From Synechococcus sp. PCC 7336 (GTDB lineage Bacteria; Cyanobacteriota; Cyanobacteriia; Thermostichales; PCC-7336), in contig NZ_CM001776.1 in assembly GCF_000332275.1 (NCBI RefSeq), positions 3,904,008 through 3,968,007 on the forward strand: 64,000 nt of DNA, in the 5' to 3' direction. Shown piece by piece: positions 29,127 through 55,039 of this stretch (its first letter is position 1; each line of letters begins with the position of its first letter). The position numbers were made by a program, and so were the translations under genes. Below the pieces are notes generated by a model. The model was not told where the DNA came from. It saw only the letters and a program-made list of their open reading frames with translations, and did no database searches.

Positions 29127-29987
29127 TCACTGTTTCGTGTCGGGCTCTTGGCTGGAATCAACTCGATCGGCAATCTCTGCGAGCTGTTCGAGGGACAATC
29201 CCGTCGCCTTTGCGATTGTTTCAAGAGGAATCCCTGCTTGTAAGCAGTTAGCGGCAATTTCCATGACTGCCTTTCTCCGAGCCTCTGCTTGAATTTCTGC
29301 TGTTGCTTGTTCTAGAACCTCGGCTTCGATCTCGCGATAGACGCGGGTGTCTTTTAGGTTGCTCAATCCCAACATGCGCTCGATGTCTCCTTTGCTTAAT
29401 TGTGGAAACTTTTCGATGGCTAACTTTCTCAGTAGCTCTATTATGTCTGACTTGATGGCGCGATCGCCGATCGCCTGTGTCTGTTGCATCACCTGTTGAA
29501 AGCGTTGCGGGGCAGTGGTGTTGGGTTCGATGGTGAGTTGGGCGATCGCGGCTCCTAGGGGGAGGCGATCGGGGTTGAGTTCGTCGAGGTAGATGCGGGT
29601 GACTCGGGGACTTTGCAGGAGGTCGCTGTAGAGGTGGGTGTCGTGGGTGTCGGCGCGGCGGCTGGGGAAGATGACGCTGGCTCGCCAGTCGGGGATGCGA
29701 TCGGGGTAGCGCAGGTAGAGGAAGAGTTCGCCGAAGAGGCGGCGGTAGATTTTGTCTTCGGGTTGGAATTGGATTTCGCAGAACCAGACGGGTTTGGGCG
29801 ATCGCTCGTCTTTGGGGACGAAGACGCCGTCGATGCGAAAGGCTTTGTCGCGGACGAAGACGGTTTGTTTGACTTCGATGGAGTCGAAGCGGTAGGCGTC
29901 GGCGTCGGTATCGGTTTGGCCTTGCAGTTGGAAGAAGCTGGCGGGGTAGGTGGCGAATAGGGTGTAGAAGATGGAGTCGGTTCGCAC
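29127..29987 (-). CDS. Rpn/DUF2887-type PD-(D/E)XK family protein
   Basis: Rpn-family proteins are recombination-promoting nuclease or transposase-like proteins that are common in cyanobacteria. From GTG 29987 (RTDSIFYTLFATYPASFFQL, the usual family start) there are about 286 residues. An upstream TTG at 30044 extends the frame by 19 Pro/Ser-rich residues. The nuclease motif is visible as DGVFVPKD followed by VWFCEIQFQPEDKIYRRLF (D...ExQ). A helical C-terminal region (AGIPLETIAKATGLSLEQLA) carries the ATGLS-type motif seen in many Rpn proteins. It stands alone beside the CRISPR array and need not be functionally linked. Confidence 0.85.
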   Translation of the reverse strand: MRTDSIFYTLFATYPASFFQLQGQTDTDADAYRFDSIEVKQTVFVRDKAFRIDGVFVPKDERSPKPVWFCEIQFQPEDKIYRRLFGELFLYLRYPDRIPDWRASVIFPSRRADTHDTHLYSDLLQSPRVTRIYLDELNPDRLPLGAAIAQLTIEPNTTAPQRFQQVMQQTQAIGDRAIKSDIIELLRKLAIEKFPQLSKGDIERMLGLSNLKDTRVYREIEAEVLEQATAEIQAEARRKAVMEIAANCLQAGIPLETIAKATGLSLEQLAEIADRVDSSQEPDTKQ

Positions 29988-30071
29988 GGTGGAGGGGTCT
30001 GGGGGGTTGGGGGAACTGTATCGGAATTGAGGCGGGATAACCAACGTAAATTTGGGGCGATCGCTGTGGGT

Positions 30072-30262: not shown

Positions 30263-31446
30263 CCTTTTCCCATTCGTTGGAATGGATTAGTTGGAAACAA
30301 ATAACTGCGCACACCATTTGTGTCCAAAGAAGTCCTTTTCCCATTCGTTGGAATGGATTAGTTGGAAACAAGCAGTAAGACCGTATCCTTGACTTTGAGT
30401 TTCAGCCTTTTCCCATTCGTTGGAATGGATTAGTTGGAAACCTATTATATTTTCTAAATAGAGTACCCTACTTTCTAACCTTTTCCCATTCGTTGGAATG
30501 GATTAGTTGGAAACCAGCTCAAGCGGGAAAAGACGATAGTGGGTGACATCCTTTTCCCATTCGTTGGAATGGATTAGTTGGAAACTTAACAAAAAAACAT
30601 TCGTCTGGGCGGATCGATACCTTTTCCCATTCGTTGGAATGGATTAGTTGGAAACCTCGTCAAAACTGATAGTTGACCTACGAAATGATTTTCCCTTTTC
30701 CCATTCGTTGGAATGGATTAGTTGGAAACCCACCGAAATTTTCTTCTAATAGTTCAATGTTATTCCTTTTCCCATTCGTTGGAATGGATTAGTTGGAAAC
30801 GTGTCTCTACTGGTATCTATATAGGTGAGTTGATTCCCTTTTCCCATTCGTTGGAATGGATTAGTTGGAAACAAGTCTCCCATGTGAGAAGCTGTACACT
30901 TTGGAGAGCCCTTTTCCCATTCGTTGGAATGGATTAGTTGGAAACATATAGCATCCCATCGAATAGAACCTCAGGTGTTTCCCTTTTCCCATTCGTTGGA
31001 ATGGATTAGTTGGAAACGTTATCTATATCAAACCAAATCAGATGATCTATACCCCTTTTCCCATTCGTTGGAATGGATTAGTTGGAAACGGCTTCCTCCT
31101 TTTTAAAATGGACTGCTACATAATCGTCTTTTCCCATTCGTTGGAATGGATTAGTTGGAAACAATGGTAGACTTTGAGGCTTTGCGCGGGATAAATAACC
31201 TTTTCCCATTCGTTGGAATGGATTAGTTGGAAACAAGACAGACAGGCGCTCGTTGAGCTCTTTATTTCGACCTTTTCCCATTCGTTGGAATGGATTAGTT
31301 GGAAACAGGGGTAAAGGGTGGTGATTTGGTACTTCGAGATTGCCTTTTCCCATTCGTTGGAATGGATTAGTTGGAAACGGGTCTTACTGCGGGCCTTTTT
31401 GACCTCATGTCCGCCCTTTTCCCATTCGTTGGAATGGATTAGTTGG
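30263..31446 (+). CRISPR. CRISPR array 1: 17 repeats of 36 bp, 16 spacers
   Basis: The repeat begins CCTTTTCC, carries a hairpin CCATTC-GTTG-GAATGG and ends in ATTAGTTGGAAAC. Repeats 1-16 are essentially identical (the 13th has T for the first C). Repeat 17 (31415-31446) lacks the final AAAC. Spacers are 34-38 bp, all different. The GAAAC end and the decayed last repeat point to transcription rightward, with the leader on the left (before 30263). The array lies 226 bp downstream of the effector operon end. The 3' handle would be GTTGGAAAC-like. Short frames inside the array are repeat artefacts. Confidence 0.97.
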
Positions 31447-31510
31447 TGATGCGATCGCCTAAAATTGACTGGTGCGATCGAAGATGACTCGGACTGGCAT
31501 TCTAAGCTGC

Positions 31511-31550
31511 TGCATTAGCCCCCTAAATCCCCCATTCTGGGGGACTTGTG
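31511..31550 (-). mobile_element. MITE remnant
   Basis: TGCATTAGCCCCCTAAATCC and the following 20 bases are the inverse of the inner right arm of the MITE seen at 38733 and elsewhere (AAGTCCCCCAGAATGGGGGA side). The termini are missing. It lies just past the decayed end of array 1. Confidence 0.7.
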
Positions 31551-31672: not shown

Positions 31673-33358
31673 TTACTGCTCCAGTGGCCACAACTTCTCA
31701 AACTCACTTCGAGTCTCCAAAAACTCTAAAAACTCATCAAACGTTTCAGACCCATCGGGAAACAAAGTCAGCAACTCGTTATAGTTTTTCGTTTTGACAT
31801 ACTCCGCCGTCTTTGGGTCCGCCTTGCGATCTTTCGGGACCGCGATCGCATACAGCCGATGCCACAACCGCCCCACCTGCCCCAAATGACCCGTCACCGA
31901 TGACTTGGCGATCGTATAATTCGGCGATCGATACGGCCCGTGCAACCAAGCTGCTGCATGACATTCCTCGGGGTTGAGATGCGGATTCACCGCCCGCCGC
32001 CCCCAAACCTGTACTGTCTCGGGATGCCACACCTCTCGCCAATGTGGGTAAGGCCCCTCCACAGAAAACTCGCACTCTTCCATCCACTTGGCAGCAGCCT
32101 GCCGCACTGCATCAATAAACTTGCCCACACTCTGAAGTTTCAATCTCCCCTGCCGCAGCGATCGCCCATCCGCCCAATCCCACTGACAGCCAATCAAAGG
32201 CTTGCGATCGCTCCCCATCCCCTCCGACCAATTGGGGTAATACTCCTTAAAAAACAAACGATGGTCCGCCCGCCGCCAAGACTTGCCAAACCCACCCAAC
32301 AGCACCGCAAACCGAGTCAAGAACACCATCAACCGCTGTAGCGCCCTGCGCTTCTCCTCCGGCAACTCCCTCAGCAACCGCCAGCGCAACTCCCCCGTCA
32401 CTTCATAAGTGGGCACTCGATAGCGATCGCGCCCAAACGAGCCCATCTCTAAAGCTCGCAGCTCGAACTCCATCCCCAACAGTCCCACCGTCGCCCCACC
32501 CCGCACGCCGCCAAACAACTTCTCTACCAACCGTACTGCCGACTCCTCTGTCGTCAAGCCGCCAAAAATCCGTAATGCATGACCCCGCAGCGCCGCCCGA
32601 AACAGATTGGGCCGAAACTCCCCCGAACCATCCAATAACTTCGCCGCCGCCCCCTGCCCCCACAGCGAACCGCGAAACAACAGCGTCCCCTGGGCGCGAC
32701 CCACAACCTGACCGTATCCGGCACAAGTACGACCGCCGAGACCCGAGGCGATCGCCCGCTCCCAAATCTGCCAAACCTCCTGCCATTGCGAATCCGAGAG
32801 CGATTTCTCCGCTGAAATGCCAAACCGCATCAGCGGACGATAGAGCGAGATCGCTGCCAACGCTCCGGTTTTATTGCCCGACATCCCTACCTGGTAGTCC
32901 TGCTGCGGGTGAACGATATCCTCCAGCCTCTCAGTCCAACTGGCATCAGTCGGATAGCCGCCGTGAAACCGCAAACTCCCCGGTTCGTAACCGTCTGCCG
33001 CTTGCAACCCGCAATAATCCTTCGCTTGTTCGCCCGAACAGGCTCGGCGGAACAAACCCTTCATACTGCTGCCGGGGAAAAACGGCCAACCCCGCGCCCC
33101 CAACAGCGGTCGAATAACGGTATCGTCCTGGCCGCCATTGGTCAGCAACCGCCAATTCACCTGATAGTCCCGCGTTTGAACGCGATCGCCAAACTGCGGC
33201 ACCGCCTCATCGATCTGCCAAGTCCACTCCGTTGTCCAGCGCTGAATATCCTCCTCCTGCCCCGCTCGATTCAGAATCCGCTGCACCTGACAGCGCCCCT
33301 GCGCCTGTGCCCGAAACATCATCGGTACTTTTGTATGAGCATTGGGAATCACCGTCAT
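31673..33358 (-). CDS. Two-domain RAMP protein, probable Cmr6-Cmr1 fusion
   Basis: In type III-B complexes Cmr1 and Cmr6 cap the end of the Cmr4 filament. This 561-residue protein shows both in one chain. Residues about 60-220 resemble Cmr6: GWPFFPGSSMKGLFRRA (the family's GSSxKGxxR), YPTD and VHPQQDYQVG, and the glycine-rich loop GLGGRTCAGYG at 206-216. Residues about 225-370 resemble Cmr1: FRGSLWGQ, GEFRPNLFRAALRG, EKLFGG and the closing GGFGKSWRRAD (355-365). The last 190 residues are not assigned. It is the last gene of the effector operon, 51 bp after cmr5, with a GAGG ribosome-binding site. Separate cmr1 and cmr6 genes are not present in the window. Confidence 0.78.
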   Translation of the reverse strand: MTVIPNAHTKVPMMFRAQAQGRCQVQRILNRAGQEEDIQRWTTEWTWQIDEAVPQFGDRVQTRDYQVNWRLLTNGGQDDTVIRPLLGARGWPFFPGSSMKGLFRRACSGEQAKDYCGLQAADGYEPGSLRFHGGYPTDASWTERLEDIVHPQQDYQVGMSGNKTGALAAISLYRPLMRFGISAEKSLSDSQWQEVWQIWERAIASGLGGRTCAGYGQVVGRAQGTLLFRGSLWGQGAAAKLLDGSGEFRPNLFRAALRGHALRIFGGLTTEESAVRLVEKLFGGVRGGATVGLLGMEFELRALEMGSFGRDRYRVPTYEVTGELRWRLLRELPEEKRRALQRLMVFLTRFAVLLGGFGKSWRRADHRLFFKEYYPNWSEGMGSDRKPLIGCQWDWADGRSLRQGRLKLQSVGKFIDAVRQAAAKWMEECEFSVEGPYPHWREVWHPETVQVWGRRAVNPHLNPEECHAAAWLHGPYRSPNYTIAKSSVTGHLGQVGRLWHRLYAIAVPKDRKADPKTAEYVKTKNYNELLTLFPDGSETFDEFLEFLETRSEFEKLWPLEQ

Positions 33359-33409
33359 ATCAGTAGTCCTCTCATGGGCGACGAAATTCGGGCTCGCTTT
33401 GCTCTCGGG

Positions 33410-33802
33410 TTACTTGTACCGTTGCGTCCACCACACCAAGCAGTCGCACAACTGCATCAGCACCGCCAACGCCACCCGCTGCTCTTCGGTCTCGATCTGC
33501 CACAGCCTTGCCGACATCGCCAACACTTGTGCAGTATCGTTCGCGTCTACATCGTCATTGGGAATCTCTAAGCCAGCAGCAGCGACAATCTCAACAAATG
33601 CATCCCAAGTGGCCTTCCAATAATCGGCTTTGGCCTGTTCCTTGCCGCGCAAGCGCAGTTGCTCGCCCCAAAACCGTTCCAAACCGTAGGCGATCGCCAT
33701 TCGCATTTTGTAAGACTGATTGAGGCTGTTGGGGTCGTTTTGTTTGGCTGCCAACACCAATTTTTGCGCCTCGCGATCGAGGCCGTAAGATTTCCATGCC
33801 AT
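33410..33802 (-). CDS. cmr5: Type III-B small subunit Cmr5 (Cas11-like)
   Basis: The 130-residue all-helical protein has the size, composition and operon position of Cmr5, which lines the inside of the Cmr complex along the crRNA-target duplex. Helical segments include YGLDREAQKLVLAAKQN, YKMRMAIAYGLERFWGEQLR and AVLMQLCDCLVWWTQRY. There are no motifs that single out the family, so the call depends on context. The start is 3 bp after the cmr4 stop, and its ribosome-binding site (AGGAGGAG) lies inside the end of cmr4, implying coupling. Confidence 0.8.
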   Translation of the reverse strand: MAWKSYGLDREAQKLVLAAKQNDPNSLNQSYKMRMAIAYGLERFWGEQLRLRGKEQAKADYWKATWDAFVEIVAAAGLEIPNDDVDANDTAQVLAMSARLWQIETEEQRVALAVLMQLCDCLVWWTQRYK

Positions 33803-33805
33803 CGC

Positions 33806-34660
33806 TTATAAGTCTCCTCCTAAAAACACCTGACAGCGACCGAAGCCGATTGATTCCAGGCCGCCAAAATAGAGTTCCGCTTCGCTCTTCTCCCCAAACG
33901 GCGCCCAGCCGGTTTCTTTCAAGGCGATGGGAAACACCAACACCGTGCCTTCGGGCAAGGCTTCCACATTGAAAAAGGCTCCGTCTTCAACTTTCTTTTG
34001 CTCGTCAGCTAGCTTGACGCGGCTTTGGCGGTAGAGGGCCATGTCGTGCAACATGCCGATGTCGTTGTCGTCGACGACGACGAGGCGATCGCTTGGCAGA
34101 TCGACCCCTTCGGGCACCCAATCGGAGAGATCGGCTTCGTGCTCGATTTCTAAAAAGCCCAGATTGAAGAACAGGACTCTTTGCTTGCTGGGTCCAGAGC
34201 CTATTTGTCTGCCCTGAAGGGTTTTGGGGGCGGTGTAGGCTTTGGGCAATTGCCGATCGAGCCCTCGGATGCGCTGATAGCGGGCCAATAACCTGGGGCA
34301 AGTCACCCACACAATGGGCTGGCCGGGACAGAAGATGGGCAGCCAGACAATGGAAGCATATTCGAACTTGACCAGAGCTTCAAAATTTTTATTCTCCTCT
34401 TGCGACGTTTCGGAGGATTCCTTACTGTCTGACGTAGCAGCTCGTCCATACCAGTTATTTGCATTCCGCTGATTTTCCGCGCTATTGTCGCCGCGCATAT
34501 CCGCCCGGAATCGTCCCCGAATGGAGCTGCCGGGAATAATGCCTGTCTGGGTGAATTGGTCGCGGAAAATTAAGTTGAGATTGCCTGTCTCCTCTCCCGC
34601 GCTGGCTCCGACGTGAACTGGAGCCTCGGTATGAATCACTCCGTAAGCTTTGGAATACAT
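33806..34660 (-). CDS. cmr4: Type III-B backbone RAMP protein Cmr4 (Cas7), catalytic Asp apparently missing
   Basis: Cmr4 forms the crRNA-binding filament and cuts target RNA every six bases, using an Asp in an IDLPIQRE-like loop. The 284-residue product has the family frame: EAPVHVGASAGEE, GIIPGSSIRGRFR, SIVWLPIFCPGQPIVWVTCP and the late glycine-rich ESIGFGRCQVFLGG. In the catalytic loop the sequence reads NLIFRDQFTQTG. Aligning on the R and the following GSS, Leu or Asn stands where Asp is expected, although an Asp lies just after the Arg. Target-RNA slicing may thus be lost or altered. The ATG is preceded by AAGGTG. A dispersed palindromic repeat separates this gene from cmr3. Confidence 0.88.
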   Translation of the reverse strand: MYSKAYGVIHTEAPVHVGASAGEETGNLNLIFRDQFTQTGIIPGSSIRGRFRADMRGDNSAENQRNANNWYGRAATSDSKESSETSQEENKNFEALVKFEYASIVWLPIFCPGQPIVWVTCPRLLARYQRIRGLDRQLPKAYTAPKTLQGRQIGSGPSKQRVLFFNLGFLEIEHEADLSDWVPEGVDLPSDRLVVVDDNDIGMLHDMALYRQSRVKLADEQKKVEDGAFFNVEALPEGTVLVFPIALKETGWAPFGEKSEAELYFGGLESIGFGRCQVFLGGDL

Positions 34661-34705
34661 GGGTCACCTTGATGAAGACTCGATATTGATTGAGTGGCTC
34701 TGCAT

Positions 34706-34745
34706 TGCCCTCACCCCCGGCCCCTCTCCCTGGGGAGAGGGGAGG
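34706..34745 (+). repeat. Dispersed GC-rich palindromic repeat (copy 2), inside the cmr operon
   Basis: The same core as at 20330 (CCCTCACCCCCGGCCCCTCT, hairpin arms CTCTCCC/GGGAGAGG), with the flank GTGGCTCTGCATTG. It occupies the 100-bp gap between cmr3 and cmr4, the only sizeable gap within the operon apart from the 51 bp before the last gene. Confidence 0.85.
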
Positions 34746-34759
34746 AAGAGGTTGGAATC

Positions 34760-35872
34760 TCAGTTTGTTGGAGTGGGGTGAAATGCTGCTGGTAGTGGCA
34801 GTGCTAGACCGCATCCCCAGCGGCTGAGATGGGGACCCTCTTTGGGGAACCACTGGTTGGGCCAGTGGTTCCAGGCGGGTTGGGGAGCTGCTAACACGTA
34901 TACGCTGCCTGCTGGCGTGGTGTAACGCCCTCTGGACAAGCGCTTGACATGTCCTTTGCCTCCCATGCGGTAGCGATAGGGCTCGGGTCGTTCCGTCAGC
35001 AAAGCCACTCGACCCTCCCAAGCGGTTGGATAGCGTCGCGACAGGCGGTTAGAGCCCCAGACTGACGGGGCGATGGTGGCAAAACTATGGCCCAAATCGC
35101 GATCGAGTAACTGTGCGGTGGACTGGCTCAAGGGTTGGCAATCCACTGATGCCAGATGTCCTTCGCCGCCAAATCGATACCATCCTGACCTCAGAGACTT
35201 GTTGGCGAGATATACGAGACAGGTGTCGGGGTGCATCTGCACGCCATTTTCTAGAAATAAGCCGCCTCGGCCCTCCTCTATATCTACCTTGCGCTGCTCG
35301 GTTTCTAGGCGGGGGTGGAGGTGGGGGACAAATTGCCAGGGCTCGCCGTAGAGTTTGAGTTCGGGCCAACGATCGCGATCGCCGAGCCGATCCCAAGCGG
35401 AGAGGGGCACCCAGGTGTGAGAACTAAATTTGCCAGACGGCATGTTGCCATCGAAGTCCAGCCATTCTCCTTCCGCTCCGGGCTGCCCGCTCCAGCGCAG
35501 CGCTTGCACGATGGCGTAGTGCTCTGGCTCGGTTTCATCATCCGCGTCTTGCGGCGGGAGTTGTCGAGCCAGTATCGAAAAAGGAGTGGGGACGCAGAAG
35601 TTTTGCGGTTGCGATCGGAAGCTCCAAAACGGTCCGGCTAAATACAGGGACTGCACCTCTGCATTGCCGTGGGTTGCGGCAAACAAGCCAGATAGGGTGG
35701 GGGTGTCTGGGGGAAAATGTTGGCCCGATCGCCCCACGAGATTTTCGGGGGATAGAAACCGTCCGGTGCTGCCGTAAAGCAAGCCCAAGGGCTCGATCGC
35801 AATGAGATACCGGAACGTTTTGAGGGCAGATTCCGCTGGGGAGGCCGGGGTTGAGCGTTCGGTTACTGGCAT
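34760..35872 (-). CDS. cmr3: Type III-B protein Cmr3 (Cas5-like)
   Basis: Cmr3 caps the 5' handle of the crRNA and contacts Cas10. The 370-residue product shows the family N-terminus FRYLIAIEPLGLLYGSTGRF and the middle signature WYRFGGEGHLASVDC, where GGEG is highly conserved in Cmr3. The C-terminal end has RWGCGLALPLPAAF, close to the usual GYGLxxP type end. The start overlaps the cas10 stop by ten bases (ATG 35872 within the last cas10 codons), so the two proteins, which bind each other, are translated together. Confidence 0.9.
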   Translation of the reverse strand: MPVTERSTPASPAESALKTFRYLIAIEPLGLLYGSTGRFLSPENLVGRSGQHFPPDTPTLSGLFAATHGNAEVQSLYLAGPFWSFRSQPQNFCVPTPFSILARQLPPQDADDETEPEHYAIVQALRWSGQPGAEGEWLDFDGNMPSGKFSSHTWVPLSAWDRLGDRDRWPELKLYGEPWQFVPHLHPRLETEQRKVDIEEGRGGLFLENGVQMHPDTCLVYLANKSLRSGWYRFGGEGHLASVDCQPLSQSTAQLLDRDLGHSFATIAPSVWGSNRLSRRYPTAWEGRVALLTERPEPYRYRMGGKGHVKRLSRGRYTTPAGSVYVLAAPQPAWNHWPNQWFPKEGPHLSRWGCGLALPLPAAFHPTPTN

Positions 35873-37665
35873 AGATGAAATCCCACTTTGGCAAGGTTAG
35901 TCACCCACTGGTTGAGGGCGCGTCGGACGTTGGGGCTAGAAGACAGTTGCGCGATCGCCTCGTCAGCGCGATCGGGGAGCAAAAATCGTTGCGGATCGCC
36001 CAAAATGCCCGATGAAACTCGACCTTCGTCGCCATCGACATTCCACCAATGCTGTTCTGACAGGGGATTCGCTGCTTGGCGGAAATCGGGGAAGTAGACT
36101 TCGAAGAGTGCGGTGGCTACCTCGATTGGGTTGCCCTCAAAGGCGTGGCGGCTTTCCAGCTCGACAACGTCGTTATAGAAATGAGTCCAGTTTTGGCCGC
36201 CTTCGCGATCGCGGTAGCCCGAGAGCAAGTCTTTTTCCAGCCAGTGCCAGGGGCAGACCCACTCCAATGTGTTGCCTCCGGCAAATAAAATGCGCAGGGC
36301 GAGACGATCGCGTCCCAGTTGTTTGGCGGATTGTTCGGCGGCTTTGCAGTGTTGCAAGACATCCCGCTGGGGCACGCGGGGACTGCACCAGACAAATCCC
36401 ACGCTGACGGTGATGGGTTTGGGGCTGTTGCCGTGCCAGACATCGCGACTGAAGGTTTGCAGCCAATTCACGCAGTCTTTGGCCAGAATTTGTGCTTGCG
36501 GGCGATACAAAACCCCTAAAAAATCGTCTCCTCCGGCGTAGATGGTGCGTCCGCCGGGAGGAAGGTCTTGTTGTACCAACTCGTGTCCCCAAGTTCTCAT
36601 CAGCGCGCTAAATGCTTGCGTGTTTTGGGCGGCTGTGGATTGAGACTGGCTGTTTTGTTGTCGTTCGAGATACTGTCCGACAGAGTCGCCGTCTCCCTGA
36701 AACCAGCCGGTCCAGAATTTGGGTTCTTTCTCCATTTTGGCATTGGGTTTGGCTAAGCGATTGAGATCGCGAAAGCTATCTGGGTTGAGTTCGTTTTGGA
36801 GTTTGGCGAGCAGGTCGCTTAATTCAGAACAGCCTATTGCGGGGCGATCGAGGGCGGTGGTGAGGCGATCGACAAACTGTTCGCCAATGGCTTCGTGGGT
36901 GATGAGGCGCTTGACCAGTTCGGGAATGCTGAGTTCTTCATCGGGATCGAGAAAGGCTTGACCGATGCTTGCTTTGAGGGTTTCTCTGTCTCGACCGGAA
37001 GTCCCATTCTTGCGTCGCAAAAGATAGGCTTCTCCCAGTTCGGCGCTGAGTTTGCGGGCAAAGGCTGTCGCTTCGAGTTTGGCTCGACCGTAGTTGAGTT
37101 GTCTGAGATCGCCTTCTCGGCCCATTCCCGGTCTGACAATCGCGTCTGCGCCTGAGAGGGTCGAGCTTTCGCCCGTCCAGTTAACGCCTACCCAGTCGCG
37201 CGATCGCTTGGTGTTGTTCAATTTTTGGCGCACGGCGGAGATGCTGTCTCCGGCAACTCCCGATGCGTAGAAAAATTCCCAGGCATGGTTGCGCCAGTGG
37301 CTCCAGGCTCGTTGCCAGCCTTCGCCGTAGGTCCAATCGTCTGACTGGACGCGTTCTGCGATCCAAGCGCGGCAGGTGTCGATCGCGCTCGACCAGGTGA
37401 GGGAAAAGCTTTGGTGGGCGAGGTCGTGAGGGAAGGGGGTTGTGCCTGCGATGAGGATGAGGTTGGGTAAGCCTTGGGCGATGTTGGGGAGGGCGGGGGA
37501 GATGACGGTGTAGTTGTGGCGATTCGCTGCGGTACAGACGGACCAAGATAGGAGTGATAGCAGATAGGAGCTACCGTACAAATCTCTCAGCTTGCGAGAT
37601 TTTTCGATAAAGCCTTGCACTGGTGCAAAGGTTACGACAGTGTAGATATTGCTGTCACTATCCAT
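35863..37665 (-). CDS. cas10: Type III-B Cas10 (Cmr2), HD domain absent, GGDD intact
   Basis: Cas10 is the large signature subunit of type III complexes. Its Palm domain with GGDD makes cyclic oligoadenylates, and an HD domain, when present, cuts DNA. The 600-residue product starts directly with the first ferredoxin-like domain (TFAPVQGFIEKSRKLRDLYG). No HD motif precedes it, and most Cmr2 proteins are some hundreds of residues longer. The second Palm domain carries IYAGGDDFLGVLYRP with GGDD at 378-381. WFQGDGDSVGQYL lies shortly before it, as in Cmr2. Thus signalling is expected to remain while DNA cleavage is not. No CARF- or SAVED-domain effector gene is seen in the window. Confidence 0.94.
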   Translation of the reverse strand: MDSDSNIYTVVTFAPVQGFIEKSRKLRDLYGSSYLLSLLSWSVCTAANRHNYTVISPALPNIAQGLPNLILIAGTTPFPHDLAHQSFSLTWSSAIDTCRAWIAERVQSDDWTYGEGWQRAWSHWRNHAWEFFYASGVAGDSISAVRQKLNNTKRSRDWVGVNWTGESSTLSGADAIVRPGMGREGDLRQLNYGRAKLEATAFARKLSAELGEAYLLRRKNGTSGRDRETLKASIGQAFLDPDEELSIPELVKRLITHEAIGEQFVDRLTTALDRPAIGCSELSDLLAKLQNELNPDSFRDLNRLAKPNAKMEKEPKFWTGWFQGDGDSVGQYLERQQNSQSQSTAAQNTQAFSALMRTWGHELVQQDLPPGGRTIYAGGDDFLGVLYRPQAQILAKDCVNWLQTFSRDVWHGNSPKPITVSVGFVWCSPRVPQRDVLQHCKAAEQSAKQLGRDRLALRILFAGGNTLEWVCPWHWLEKDLLSGYRDREGGQNWTHFYNDVVELESRHAFEGNPIEVATALFEVYFPDFRQAANPLSEQHWWNVDGDEGRVSSGILGDPQRFLLPDRADEAIAQLSSSPNVRRALNQWVTNLAKVGFHLCQ

Positions 37666-37833
37666 CAGAACGGTTTTTAGGGAGTGAGTTGACGATAATT
37701 TGCTTGTCTAGCTCGAACGGGAGATTCTAATGCTTTCTTCAGAGTTGGTGATTTTTCTCAACTGAGTGCCACGATGCGTAACGTTCGATTGTCTTGCGAT
37801 GAGTCTAAGAGTCAGAACGAGAAATACCTCCCG

Positions 37834-38396
37834 CTATTTCTGTGTTAGGTCGAATTGCTCGAATTCTTCTTGGTTGCAAGGAATCATCAACGTTGAATCG
37901 CGATCGCCTTCTTGGATCTCATGGATTTGCTGTAGAAAAATTGGGGTATTAAAGAATCGAATTGAGAATTTTTTTTCTTCTCCTTTTAATGGAATCATGC
38001 CAATGCGCCCTAAGACTTCAGCTCGTGTGAGCTCTGAACGGCGTAGTTCGAGGGGTAATTCAAATTTATTATCGCCATAGCACAGCATTACCTTTACCTT
38101 TTGGTGCTGAAGCTTTTTCTGATGCTCTTTCTCCTGCTCGAACCTGTGTTCTAAATTTGCGATCTTCTGCAAAATAGCTCTGGAAGATTCTCCTTCACCC
38201 AAGACAAATATGCGATTCAAGAAAAAGAAGAGTATACCAACTGCCAGAAGTTCTGATGACAGGTTAATTGCGATCGCCTGGAGAGTTCCTTGAAAGAAGC
38301 GATCGCCAACTAAAGCAAGGGTGACAGACAGAGCTATCAGGAGTCCATAAACCGCTAGCTCGTAGCGTTTCAGTCCGATCTTATCTTATTTGGCAT
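37834..38396 (-). pseudogene. Frameshifted two-TM accessory gene upstream of cas10
   Basis: An intact frame from TTG 38220 to 37834 encodes 128 residues, but the same frame continues upstream without ATG, GTG or TTG to a TAA at 38386-38388. It covers two obvious TM helices (YELAVYGLLIALSVTLALVG and LSSELLAVGILFFFLNRIF). An ATG at 38396 (or 38411) with AGGTG upstream is in another frame and stops after a few codons. A one-base shift would join it to the TM part. After the helices come a short coiled coil (AILQKIANLEHRFEQEKEHQ) and an 80-residue domain (VKVMLCYGDNKFELPLELRR, FNTPIFLQQIHEIQEGDRDS, LMIPCNQEEFEQFD). I do not recognise the domain. It lies 168 bp before cas10 on the same strand, as expected for a membrane accessory of type III systems. 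Confidence 0.62.
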
Positions 38397-38732
38397 TGGC
38401 TTTGTCGGCATCACCTACGTCTCACCGATTCTTTGCGATCGGATTAGTTGGAAAAGCAAATGCAATCCACTTACATCGAAATCCTAAACGGTCTCACCGA
38501 TTCTTTGCGATCGGATTAGTTGGAAAAATCTCAGCTACGAATGGGCTAGTCTGCCGGTAGGTCTCACCGAATTCTTTGCGATCGGATTAGTTGGAAACAG
38601 TCCTAAACGCCACCTCTCGTTCAGAACAGTGAGCATCTCACCGATTCTTTGCGATCGGATTAGTTGGAAACAAACACGCGAGCACCACTGTCTGTGTTCT
38701 CTCCGTCTCACCGATTCTTTGCGATCGGATTA

Positions 38733-38995
38733 AACCTCTTCCATGTTGAGACCTAGAGTTTTCAGACATTGCACTCAGCCCCCTAAATCCCCCACCAGTG
38801 GGGGACTTCCGCGAGGCTATTGGCTTCGTTCTGCAACTGTCGATCGCAGCGATCGCCGCTCGCCTTCCCCGTCTCCCAATTCCAACCGGCACTGCACACA
38901 AGTCCCCCAGAATGGGGGATTTAGGGGGCTAATGCAGCAAACCACAGCGCTAGTAGGAAAAACTCAAAGCTATGGGTTTCAAAACAGACTCGGTT
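38733..38995. mobile_element. MITE copy 1 inside a CRISPR repeat
   Basis: A 263-bp element beginning AACCTCTTCC and ending CTCGGTT, flanked by TA on both sides (TA target duplication). The ~30-bp ends are imperfect inverted repeats, and two inner ~30-bp arms (AGCCCCCTAAATCCCCCAC and its inverse) pair. It has no transposase. It is slightly diverged from the other six copies here. Confidence 0.92.
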
Positions 38996-39070
38996 TAGTT
39001 GGAAACTTGAGTTAATGCAACCTCCTCCAGATTTCCATATGCATCTCACCGATTCTTTGCGATCGGATTA

Positions 39071-39333
39071 AACCTCTTCCATGTTGAGACCTAGAGTTTT
39101 CAGACATTGCACTCAGCCCCCTAAATCCCCCACCAGTGGGGGACTTCCGCGAGGCTATTGGCTTTGTTCTGCAACTGTCGATCGCAGCGATCGCCGCTCG
39201 CCTTCCCCGTCTCCCAATTCCAACCGGCACTGCACACAAGTCCCCCAGAATGGGGGATTTAGGGGGCTAATGCAGTGAACCACAGCGCTAGTAGAAAAAA
39301 CTCAAAACTATGGGTTTCAAACCAGACTCGGTT
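39071..39333. mobile_element. MITE copy 2 inside a CRISPR repeat
   Basis: Same 263-bp element in the same repeat position, 338 bp from copy 1, flanked by TA. Confidence 0.92.
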
Positions 39334-39408
39334 TAGTTGGAAACTTGAGTTAATGAAACCTCCTCCAGATTTCCATATGCGTCTCACCGATTCTTTGCGA
39401 TCGGATTA

Positions 39409-39671
39409 AACCTCTTCCATGTTGAGACCTAGAGTTTTCAGACATTGCACTCAGCCCCCTAAATCCCCCACCAGTGGGGGACTTCCGCGAGGCTATTGGC
39501 TTCGTTCTGCAACTGTCGATCGCTGCGATCGCCGCTCGCCTTCCCCGTCTCCCAATTCCAACCGGCACTGCACACAAGTCCCCCAGAATGGGGGATTTAG
39601 GGGGCTAATGCAGCGAACCACAGCGCTAGTAGGAAGAATTCAAAACTAAGGGTTTCAAACCAGACTCGGTT
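39409..39671. mobile_element. MITE copy 3 inside a CRISPR repeat
   Basis: Same 263-bp element in the same repeat position, 338 bp from copy 2, flanked by TA. Confidence 0.92.
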
Positions 39672-39746
39672 TAGTTGGAAACTTGAGTTAATGAAACCTC
39701 CTCCAGATTTCCATATGCGTCTCACCGATTCTTTGCGATCGGATTA

Positions 39747-40009
39747 AACCTCTTCCATGTTGAGACCTAGAGTTTTCAGACATTGCACTCAGCCCCCTAA
39801 ATCCCCCACCAGTGGGGGACTTCCGCGAGGCTATTGGCTTCGTTCTGCAACTGTCGATCGCTGCGATCGCCGATCTCCTTCCCCGTCTCCCAATTCCAAC
39901 CGGCACTGCACACAAGTCCCCCAGAATGGGGGATTTAGGGGGCTAATGCAGCGAACCACAGCGCTAGTAGGAAGAATTCAAAACTAAGGGTTTCAAACCA
40001 AACTCGGTT
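39747..40009. mobile_element. MITE copy 4 inside a CRISPR repeat
   Basis: Same 263-bp element in the same repeat position. It differs from copy 3 mainly by GATCTC for GCTCGC near the middle, a change shared with copy 5. Confidence 0.92.
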
Positions 40010-40084
40010 TAGTTGGAAACTTGAGTTAATGAAACCTCCTCCAGATTTCCATATGCGTCTCACCGATTCTTTGCGATCGGATTA

Positions 40085-40347
40085 AACCTCTTCCATGTTG
40101 AGACCTAGAGTTTTCAGACATTGCACTCAGCCCCCTAAATCCCCCACCAGTGGGGGACTTCCGCGAGGCTATTGGCTTCGTTCTGCAACTGTCGATCGCT
40201 GCGATCGCCGATCTCCTTCCCCGTCTCCCAATTCCAACCGGCACTGCACACAAGTCCCCCAGAATGGGGGATTTAGGGGGCTAATGCAGTGAACCACAGC
40301 GCTAGTAGAAAAAACTCAAAACTATGGGTTTCAAACCAGACTCGGTT
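40085..40347. mobile_element. MITE copy 5 inside a CRISPR repeat
   Basis: Same 263-bp element. The middle matches copy 4 while the right end (AGTAGAAAAAACTC) matches copy 2, suggesting exchange between copies. Confidence 0.92.
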
Positions 40348-40422
40348 TAGTTGGAAACTTGAGTTAATGAAACCTCCTCCAGATTTCCATATGCGTCTCA
40401 CCGATTCTTTGCGATCGGATTA

Positions 40423-40685
40423 AACCTCTTCCATGTTGAGACCTAGAGTTTTCAGACATTGCACTCAGCCCCCTAAATCCCCCACCAGTGGGGGACTTCC
40501 GCGAGGCTATTGGCTTCGTTCTGCAACTGTCGATCGCTGCGATCGCCGCTCGCCTTCCCCGTCTCCCAATTCCAACCGGCACTGCACACAAGTCCCCCAG
40601 AATGGGGGATTTAGGGGGCTAATGCAGCGAACCACAGCGCTAGTAGGAAGAATTCAAAACTAAGGGTTTCAAACCAGACTCGGTT
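40423..40685. mobile_element. MITE copy 6 inside a CRISPR repeat
   Basis: Same 263-bp element, nearly identical to copy 3. Confidence 0.92.
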
Positions 40686-40760
40686 TAGTTGGAAACTTGA
40701 GTTAATGAAACCTCCTCCAGATTTCCATATGCGTCTCACCGATTCTTTGCGATCGGATTA

Positions 40761-41023
40761 AACCTCTTCCATGTTGAGACCTAGAGTTTTCAGACATTGC
40801 ACTCAGCCCCCTAAATCCCCCACCAGTGGGGGACTTCCGCGAGGCTATTAGCTTCGTTCTGCAACTGTCGATCGCTGCGATCGCCGATCGCCTTCCCCGT
40901 CTCCCAATTCCAACCGGCACTGCACACAAGTCCCCCAGAATGGGGGATTTAGGGGGCTAATGCAGCGAACCACAGCGCTAGTAGGAAAAACTCAAAACTA
41001 AGGGTTTCAAACCAGACTCGGTT
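40761..41023. mobile_element. MITE copy 7 inside a CRISPR repeat
   Basis: Same 263-bp element, the last in the series, with small private changes (CTATTAGCTTC). It is followed by the shared spacer and the terminal repeat. Confidence 0.92.
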
Positions 41024-41122
41024 TAGTTGGAAACTTGAGTTAATGAAACCTCCTCCAGATTTCCATATGCGTCTCACCGATTCTTTGCGATCGAATTAGT
41101 TGAAAACACCATTTACTGCTGG

Positions 41123-52288: not shown

Positions 52289-52337
52289 CCTCAGTTCGTC
52301 AGGGTTTTGGGATCGATCGGAGAAAATCATCGGACTA

Positions 52338-52606
52338 AACCTCATCCATGTTGAGACCTGGAGTTTTTAGGCATTGCACTCAGCCCCCTAAATCCCCCAC
52401 CAGTGGGGGACTTGTGAAAGGTTCTCGACTTCGTTCTACAGCTTCAAAAACAGCGATCTCGTTCCCCGTCTCCCAAAGCCAGCTAGTCCTGTAGTCAAGT
52501 CCCCCAGAATGGGGGATTTAGGGGGCGAATGCAGCGAGTGACAGCGCTAGTGAGATCGGCTAATAGGCATCTCCTCAAAACTACGGGTTTCAGACTAGAT
52601 GCGGTT
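52338..52606. mobile_element. MITE copy between the Wzc-like and sugar-transferase genes
   Basis: A 269-bp copy with ends AACC...GGTT and TA duplications (52336-52337 and 52607-52608). It has the same inner inverted arms as the array-2 copies, but the centre has diverged (TTGTGAAAGG, CAGCTTCAAA). Its right edge forms part of the stop codon of the upstream sugar transferase. Confidence 0.93.
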
Positions 52607-54558: not shown

Positions 54559-54763
54559 ATTAACCTCCTTTATCGAGTCAAGTGAGCACCAATCTCTAGC
54601 AGCGAGCAGCCTAAATATTGCGATCGCCAAGGAGCGATCGCCCTTATCAAAAGGGATGAAAAATTATTAGTAATTTCTAAGAAAAAAGATGGTATCCATG
54701 TCAAACGATCGAGCTATTGATAGGTATTTGTCGATCTGGTCTGGATTTTGCTGGGAATACATA

Positions 54764-55039
54764 AACCCCATCCATATTGAGATCTGGAGTTTTCAGACAT
54801 TGCACTCGGCCCCCTAAATCCCCCACCAGTGGGGGACTTCCGAGAGGCTATTGGCTTCGTTCTACAACTTTAACGATCGCGATCTCCATCGCCTTCCCTG
54901 CCTCCCAACCTTCAACTGGAACTGTACTCAAGTCCCCCAGAATGGGGGATTTAGGGGGCTAATGCAGCGAACCACAGTGCCAGTGAGAGGGTCTAATAGA
55001 CACATTCTCAAAACTATGGGTCTCTACTTAGACGGGGTT
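54764..55039. mobile_element. MITE copy upstream of the WecB-like gene
   Basis: A 276-bp copy with ends AACC...GGTT and TA duplications (54762-54763 and 55040-55041). The inner arms are conserved (AGTCCCCCAGAATGGGGGAT). It is intergenic between the GT4 gene and the WecB-like gene. Confidence 0.9.

Follow-up and report, generated by a model that had tools for sequence, protein, structure and literature searches.

A type III-B CRISPR array of Synechococcus sp. PCC 7336 in which a MITE-split repeat and its spacer are present in seven tandem units

How does one transposable element come to lie at exactly the same position in seven successive CRISPR repeats, each followed by the same spacer? The question is raised by a 64,000-nucleotide stretch of the Synechococcus sp. 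PCC 7336 genome (GCF_000332275.1, contig NZ_CM001776.1, positions 3,904,008 to 3,968,007; hereafter, the window). A first-pass annotation had described seven units with a strict 338-bp period, each with a 263-bp TA-flanked element and a 36-nt spacer, and both Tandem Repeats Finder and our unit bookkeeping agree with that description: the tandem block (38704-41098) has a period of 338, 7.1 copies, 98% matches and no indels. Each unit opens with 28 nt of a 37-nt repeat; the 263-bp element with its single TA duplication comes next, and the remaining 9 nt of the repeat and a 36-nt spacer close the unit (37-nt repeat + 263-bp element + 2-bp TA duplication + 36-nt spacer = 338), and the element with its two TA flanks measures 267 bp in every unit (Table 1). 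The ends of the element rejoin the two repeat parts into a perfect repeat, as had been claimed. The spacer of the split units, spacer X, is identical throughout apart from one substitution in copy 1. The tandem array is thus real as assembled, and chance is not at issue.

Table 1. Coordinates of the array, its seven MITE copies and the neighboring type III-B features in the window.
Feature	Coordinates	Strand	Remarks
Second CRISPR array	30263..31450	+	Different repeat body, same 3' end (GGATTAGTTGGAAAC); 17 repeats, no MITE
Type III-B cmr6-cmr5-cmr4-cmr3-cmr2(cas10b) operon	31673..37665	-	Adjoins the array
csx23-like type III accessory gene	37834..38220	-	Divergent from the array
Leader-proximal part of the array	38418..38703	+	Four intact repeats, spacers 32-34 nt
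Seven head-to-tail 338-bp units	38704..41069	+	Repeat 5' part, MITE, repeat 3' part, spacer X; unit starts 38704, 39042, 39380, 39718, 40056, 40394, 40732
MITE copy 1	38731..38997	+	With both flanking TA, 267 bp (element proper 263 bp)
MITE copy 2	39069..39335	+	
MITE copy 3	39407..39673	+	Identical to copy 6
MITE copy 4	39745..40011	+	
MITE copy 5	40083..40349	+	Shares the middle variant with copy 4 and the right-end variant with copy 2
MITE copy 6	40421..40687	+	
MITE copy 7	40759..41025	+	
Terminal repeat	41071..41107	+	Unsplit, degenerate at two positions (CGAATTA, TTGAAAAC)

The intact repeats, which span 38418-38671 upstream of the split units, and the single degenerate terminal repeat mark the locus as a CRISPR array with spacers of 32-36 nt overall; the split section, where all seven spacers are spacer X, departs from the rule of unique spacers. 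Leader-distal repeats typically carry trailer-end polymorphisms (PMC8047081), and from the degenerate terminal repeat at the right end it follows that the leader lies to the left and that the split unit holds the oldest position among the spacers. Effector genes (cmr6-5-4-3-2 and csx23) adjoin the array. This type III-B region (31673-38220) encodes a 561-aa Cmr6-type protein, a 600-aa Cas10/Cmr2 and the csx23-like protein. Among the genes scanned there is no separate cmr1, and neither cas1 nor cas6 was found beside the operon; elsewhere the genome has three matches to Cas6, at G000:C1:3250070, 144411 and 154014, and two strong ones to Cas1. The second CRISPR array is flanked by a gene for an Rpn-family recombination-promoting nuclease/putative transposase (29127-30044, TIGR01784).

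Outside the array, the genome (5,066,637 bp) holds roughly 40 further copies of the inserted element, ~260-280 bp where full length, among 73 matches listed, some of which are short arm-to-arm matches. Where the ends of a copy can be read, they are mostly TA|AACC...GGTT|TA within unrelated flanks, and some copies have degenerate or truncated ends; the family is multi-copy, short and non-coding with a TA target-site duplication, as is typical of IS630-type MITEs. A 25-nt left-end pattern of the MITE is present in many other cyanobacteria, and a 1207-bp element bounded by related ends in Cylindrospermum sp. NIES-4074 has a 321-aa frame that matches DDE_3 and HTH_33. Elements of the IS630/Tc1-mariner kind such as ISY100 insert at TA and duplicate it (PMC2170065), a likeness that extends to their MITEs; the array element differs from them in being non-autonomous. 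Because related ends bound a DDE_3 element, and because insertion occurs at TA with duplication, we assign the array element by sequence comparison to the MITEs of the IS630/Tc1-mariner group. The Synechococcus genome has four DDE_3 matches of its own, parts of which align with the Cylindrospermum transposase at 24-43% identity, and the stretches read near these four contain no full-length partner with the ends of the MITE. Scans for a promoter or terminator role of the MITE gave results at or below shuffled expectation. Three further observations concern this family. The window has partial matches at 52336-52551 and 54762-54984, with 82% and 87% identity across the first 224 positions, and overlapping matches on both strands at L018 (G000:C1:770874-771096) suggest a rearranged or nested copy. 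Finally, 43 bp at 31508-31550, ~60 bp past the end of the other CRISPR array, are 100% identical to MITE positions 167-209 and may represent a separate short palindromic repeat common to the MITE core.

The CRISPR repeat (GTCTCACCGATTCTTTGCGATCGGATTAGTTGGAAAC) contains a single TA, at nt 27-28, and this is the insertion point of the MITE, one nucleotide ahead of the last 8 nt of the repeat. The 5' tag of type III crRNAs is usually 8 nt. Five other cyanobacterial genomes of the same class carry closely similar repeats; the stretches read there hold at least 109 intact copies of GATCGGATTAGTTGGAAA, and none of the arrays examined has a repeat split by this MITE. At three of these loci (L085-L087) this repeat type lies beside cmr2-cmr6 homologues and at a fourth (L089) beside cmr6; because intact copies of the same type occur beside cmr genes in other cyanobacteria, the intact repeat is taken as the ancestral state. 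The four arrays also have gaps of 0.85-1.1 kb between members of the repeat type, with neither the MITE core nor such a split repeat in the parts inspected, and three of the four carry a few repeats on the opposite strand too. No orthologous spacer set was found in these genomes, and no orthologous array with one or no MITE among the genomes compared, in which the source genome is the sole member of its family. No array of this kind is present in relatives of the same order, the searched genome-contig collection gave no match to the repeat core, and a plasmid search gave no match to the array.

The seven array copies form one clade (support 0.963) in a tree with 32 genomic MITE copies, which argues for one insertion followed by amplification. 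They are ~86% identical to the nearest genomic copies and ≥96% identical to each other, and the amplification is therefore later than the split from known relatives. The amplified unit extends from repeat start to repeat start. No comparable tandem cluster of near-identical copies exists at the other MITE sites in the genome, which fits the presence of only a 2-bp TA direct repeat there, as opposed to CRISPR repeats here. A single MITE insertion and subsequent tandem amplification, as proposed at first reading, is thus well supported by the genome-wide TA-flanked family, the monophyly of the array copies, the lone TA as insertion site and the intact repeats elsewhere. We consider it very probable that one MITE inserted into the last full repeat, that recombinational duplication followed and grew to seven units, and that the segment is at best weakly functional. 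The sequence itself shows the insertion with its TA duplication, the single origin of the copies, the boundaries of the units and the conflicts between haplotypes, whereas the recombination mechanism and the weak function are inferred. In this scheme, the last full repeat of the type III-B array would have received an IS630-type MITE at its only TA, in a single transposition that left a 28-nt repeat half on the left, with the terminal repeat ~338 bp downstream as its direct-repeat partner. The split-repeat-plus-spacer unit would have been duplicated when these partners misaligned during replication or recombined unequally, and the resulting 338-bp homology would then have driven both growth to seven units and exchange between units. 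A repeat-to-repeat unit is the product expected if the 28-nt half misaligned with the terminal repeat. The split segment would be a neutral or mildly harmful by-product, the four leader-proximal spacers keeping normal repeats; retention of seven copies of a terminal unit is somewhat unexpected under pure neutrality.

Variation among the units bears on what followed. Sixteen columns vary across the seven units (0-11 differences per pair), which represent six distinct haplotypes, and private alleles mark copies 1 and 7, one at each end of the series. The unit alignment also contains the middle variant shared by copies 4 and 5 and the right-end variant shared by copies 2 and 5, from which later exchange between copies had been deduced. 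Four-gamete conflicts between left-block and right-block variants (12 site pairs) agree with this deduction, though assembly phasing errors could mimic them, and suggest exchange between units after amplification. Ectopic gene conversion from genomic MITEs was considered as the main source of variation and appears not to be needed, since several array alleles are private.

The same conflicts enter into two other accounts of the array. Spacer X might have been amplified first in ordinary repeats, with the MITE spreading later by gene conversion or by repeated TA insertion; the unique TA does allow repeated insertion at the same base, and the conflicts do suggest conversion between units. This order of events nonetheless appears highly improbable, as it leaves the MITE in seven of seven units yet absent from adjacent repeats with the same TA, must accommodate copies that form one clade in one orientation, and needs more events than a single insertion before amplification. 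Copy number and the mosaic pattern also rest on one assembly, and either could in whole or in part be an artefact, with fewer or more true units and haplotype blocks shuffled by the assembler. Short reads cope poorly with 338-bp units whose identity reaches 100% (copies 3 and 6), and mis-phasing would also yield the observed haplotype conflicts. Against this, six distinct haplotypes are hard to obtain by pure assembly error, and the private alleles at both ends, in a single-contig genome, point to a real multi-copy array; we regard an artefact as unlikely.

What the split section does for immunity is a further point on which readings diverge. For the RNA of a unit, a single long hairpin is predicted (-120.4 kcal/mol, z -5.4). 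In six of the seven units the repeat stem-loop retains its outer pairs with a probability of ~0.9 or more, and the sequence of the tag, TTGGAAAC, is intact. These features would suit an amplification under selection, in which the MITE folds out, the repeat stem-loop and the 8-nt tag come to adjoin, and spacer X crRNA is made at a higher dose; the predicted pairing of the MITE ends, strong in three of the seven units, points the same way. The pairing is, however, weak in the other four, the tag is itself predicted to be paired, and hairpin folding is a general property of MITEs. Spacer X has no target in its own genome at up to three mismatches over 29 nt, only chance-level matches in phages, and three sub-sequences with no exact match in viral contigs; the four intact leader-proximal spacers likewise gave nothing convincing against phages. 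Nor is there excess conservation of repeat or spacer: variable sites number 2/71 in repeat plus spacer and 14/267 in the MITE (p=0.54), a low-power comparison with only 16 variable sites that gives no sign of selection preserving the crRNA parts. We therefore judge selection for a higher crRNA dose to be very unlikely. A bolder reading holds that the split repeats are still read as CRISPR repeats, their MITE hairpin folded out or trimmed, under selected amplification, and we give this very little credence. If it were true, a transposon would have been domesticated into an enlarged CRISPR repeat, the seven copies of spacer X would deliver one type III crRNA at high dose, and processing of the split repeats would yield a mature RNA of the form 5'-UUGGAAAC-spacer X. 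Because the tag is predicted to be paired and the MITE ends to pair strongly in three units only, and because repeat and spacer show no detectable sparing from variation and no target of spacer X was found in the collections searched, the split section is most likely a non-functional or nearly non-functional by-product with little or no crRNA output.

The array had also been called unusual, and this holds in part. CRISPR repeats interrupted by transposons are commoner than this would suggest: a published catalogue counts 59 cases, among them a 180-bp MITE in a CRISPR direct repeat of Microcystis aeruginosa NIES-843 (PMC4852346). The Microcystis MITE resembles the one described here in its position inside a repeat, its target duplication and its cyanobacterial host; the catalogued insertions, however, split arrays, with no amplified split repeat plus spacer mentioned in the text consulted, and the target duplication there is 5 bp rather than TA (PMC4852346). 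The MITE HqIRS37 of Haloquadratum walsbyi HBSQ001 likewise lies in a reduced CRISPR array (PMC3119063) but occupies a spacer in one copy with no cas genes left, as compared with a repeat, seven copies and an adjacent cmr operon here. Spacer-repeat duplication by recombination or replication misalignment is known but rare (PMC8047081, PMC11472070); such duplications share with this array unit boundaries at repeats and the proposed mechanism, whereas the unit here is the terminal one, carries a transposon and grew to seven copies. Searches of an open-licence literature library turned up no amplified MITE-split repeat, and within that library it is this amplification that appears to be unreported.

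The array is a rare and informative accident of CRISPR evolution and probably not a new immune mechanism. It indicates how a single transposon insertion can become a tandem array through the repeat structure of the CRISPR locus, with the next repeat serving as partner for the split one. The MITE variants also keep a natural record of duplication and exchange inside a CRISPR array, for which spacer duplications of the ordinary kind provide hardly any markers. Finally, with a 265-bp hairpin one base from the expected processing site, the locus is a natural test case for whether type III crRNA can still form.
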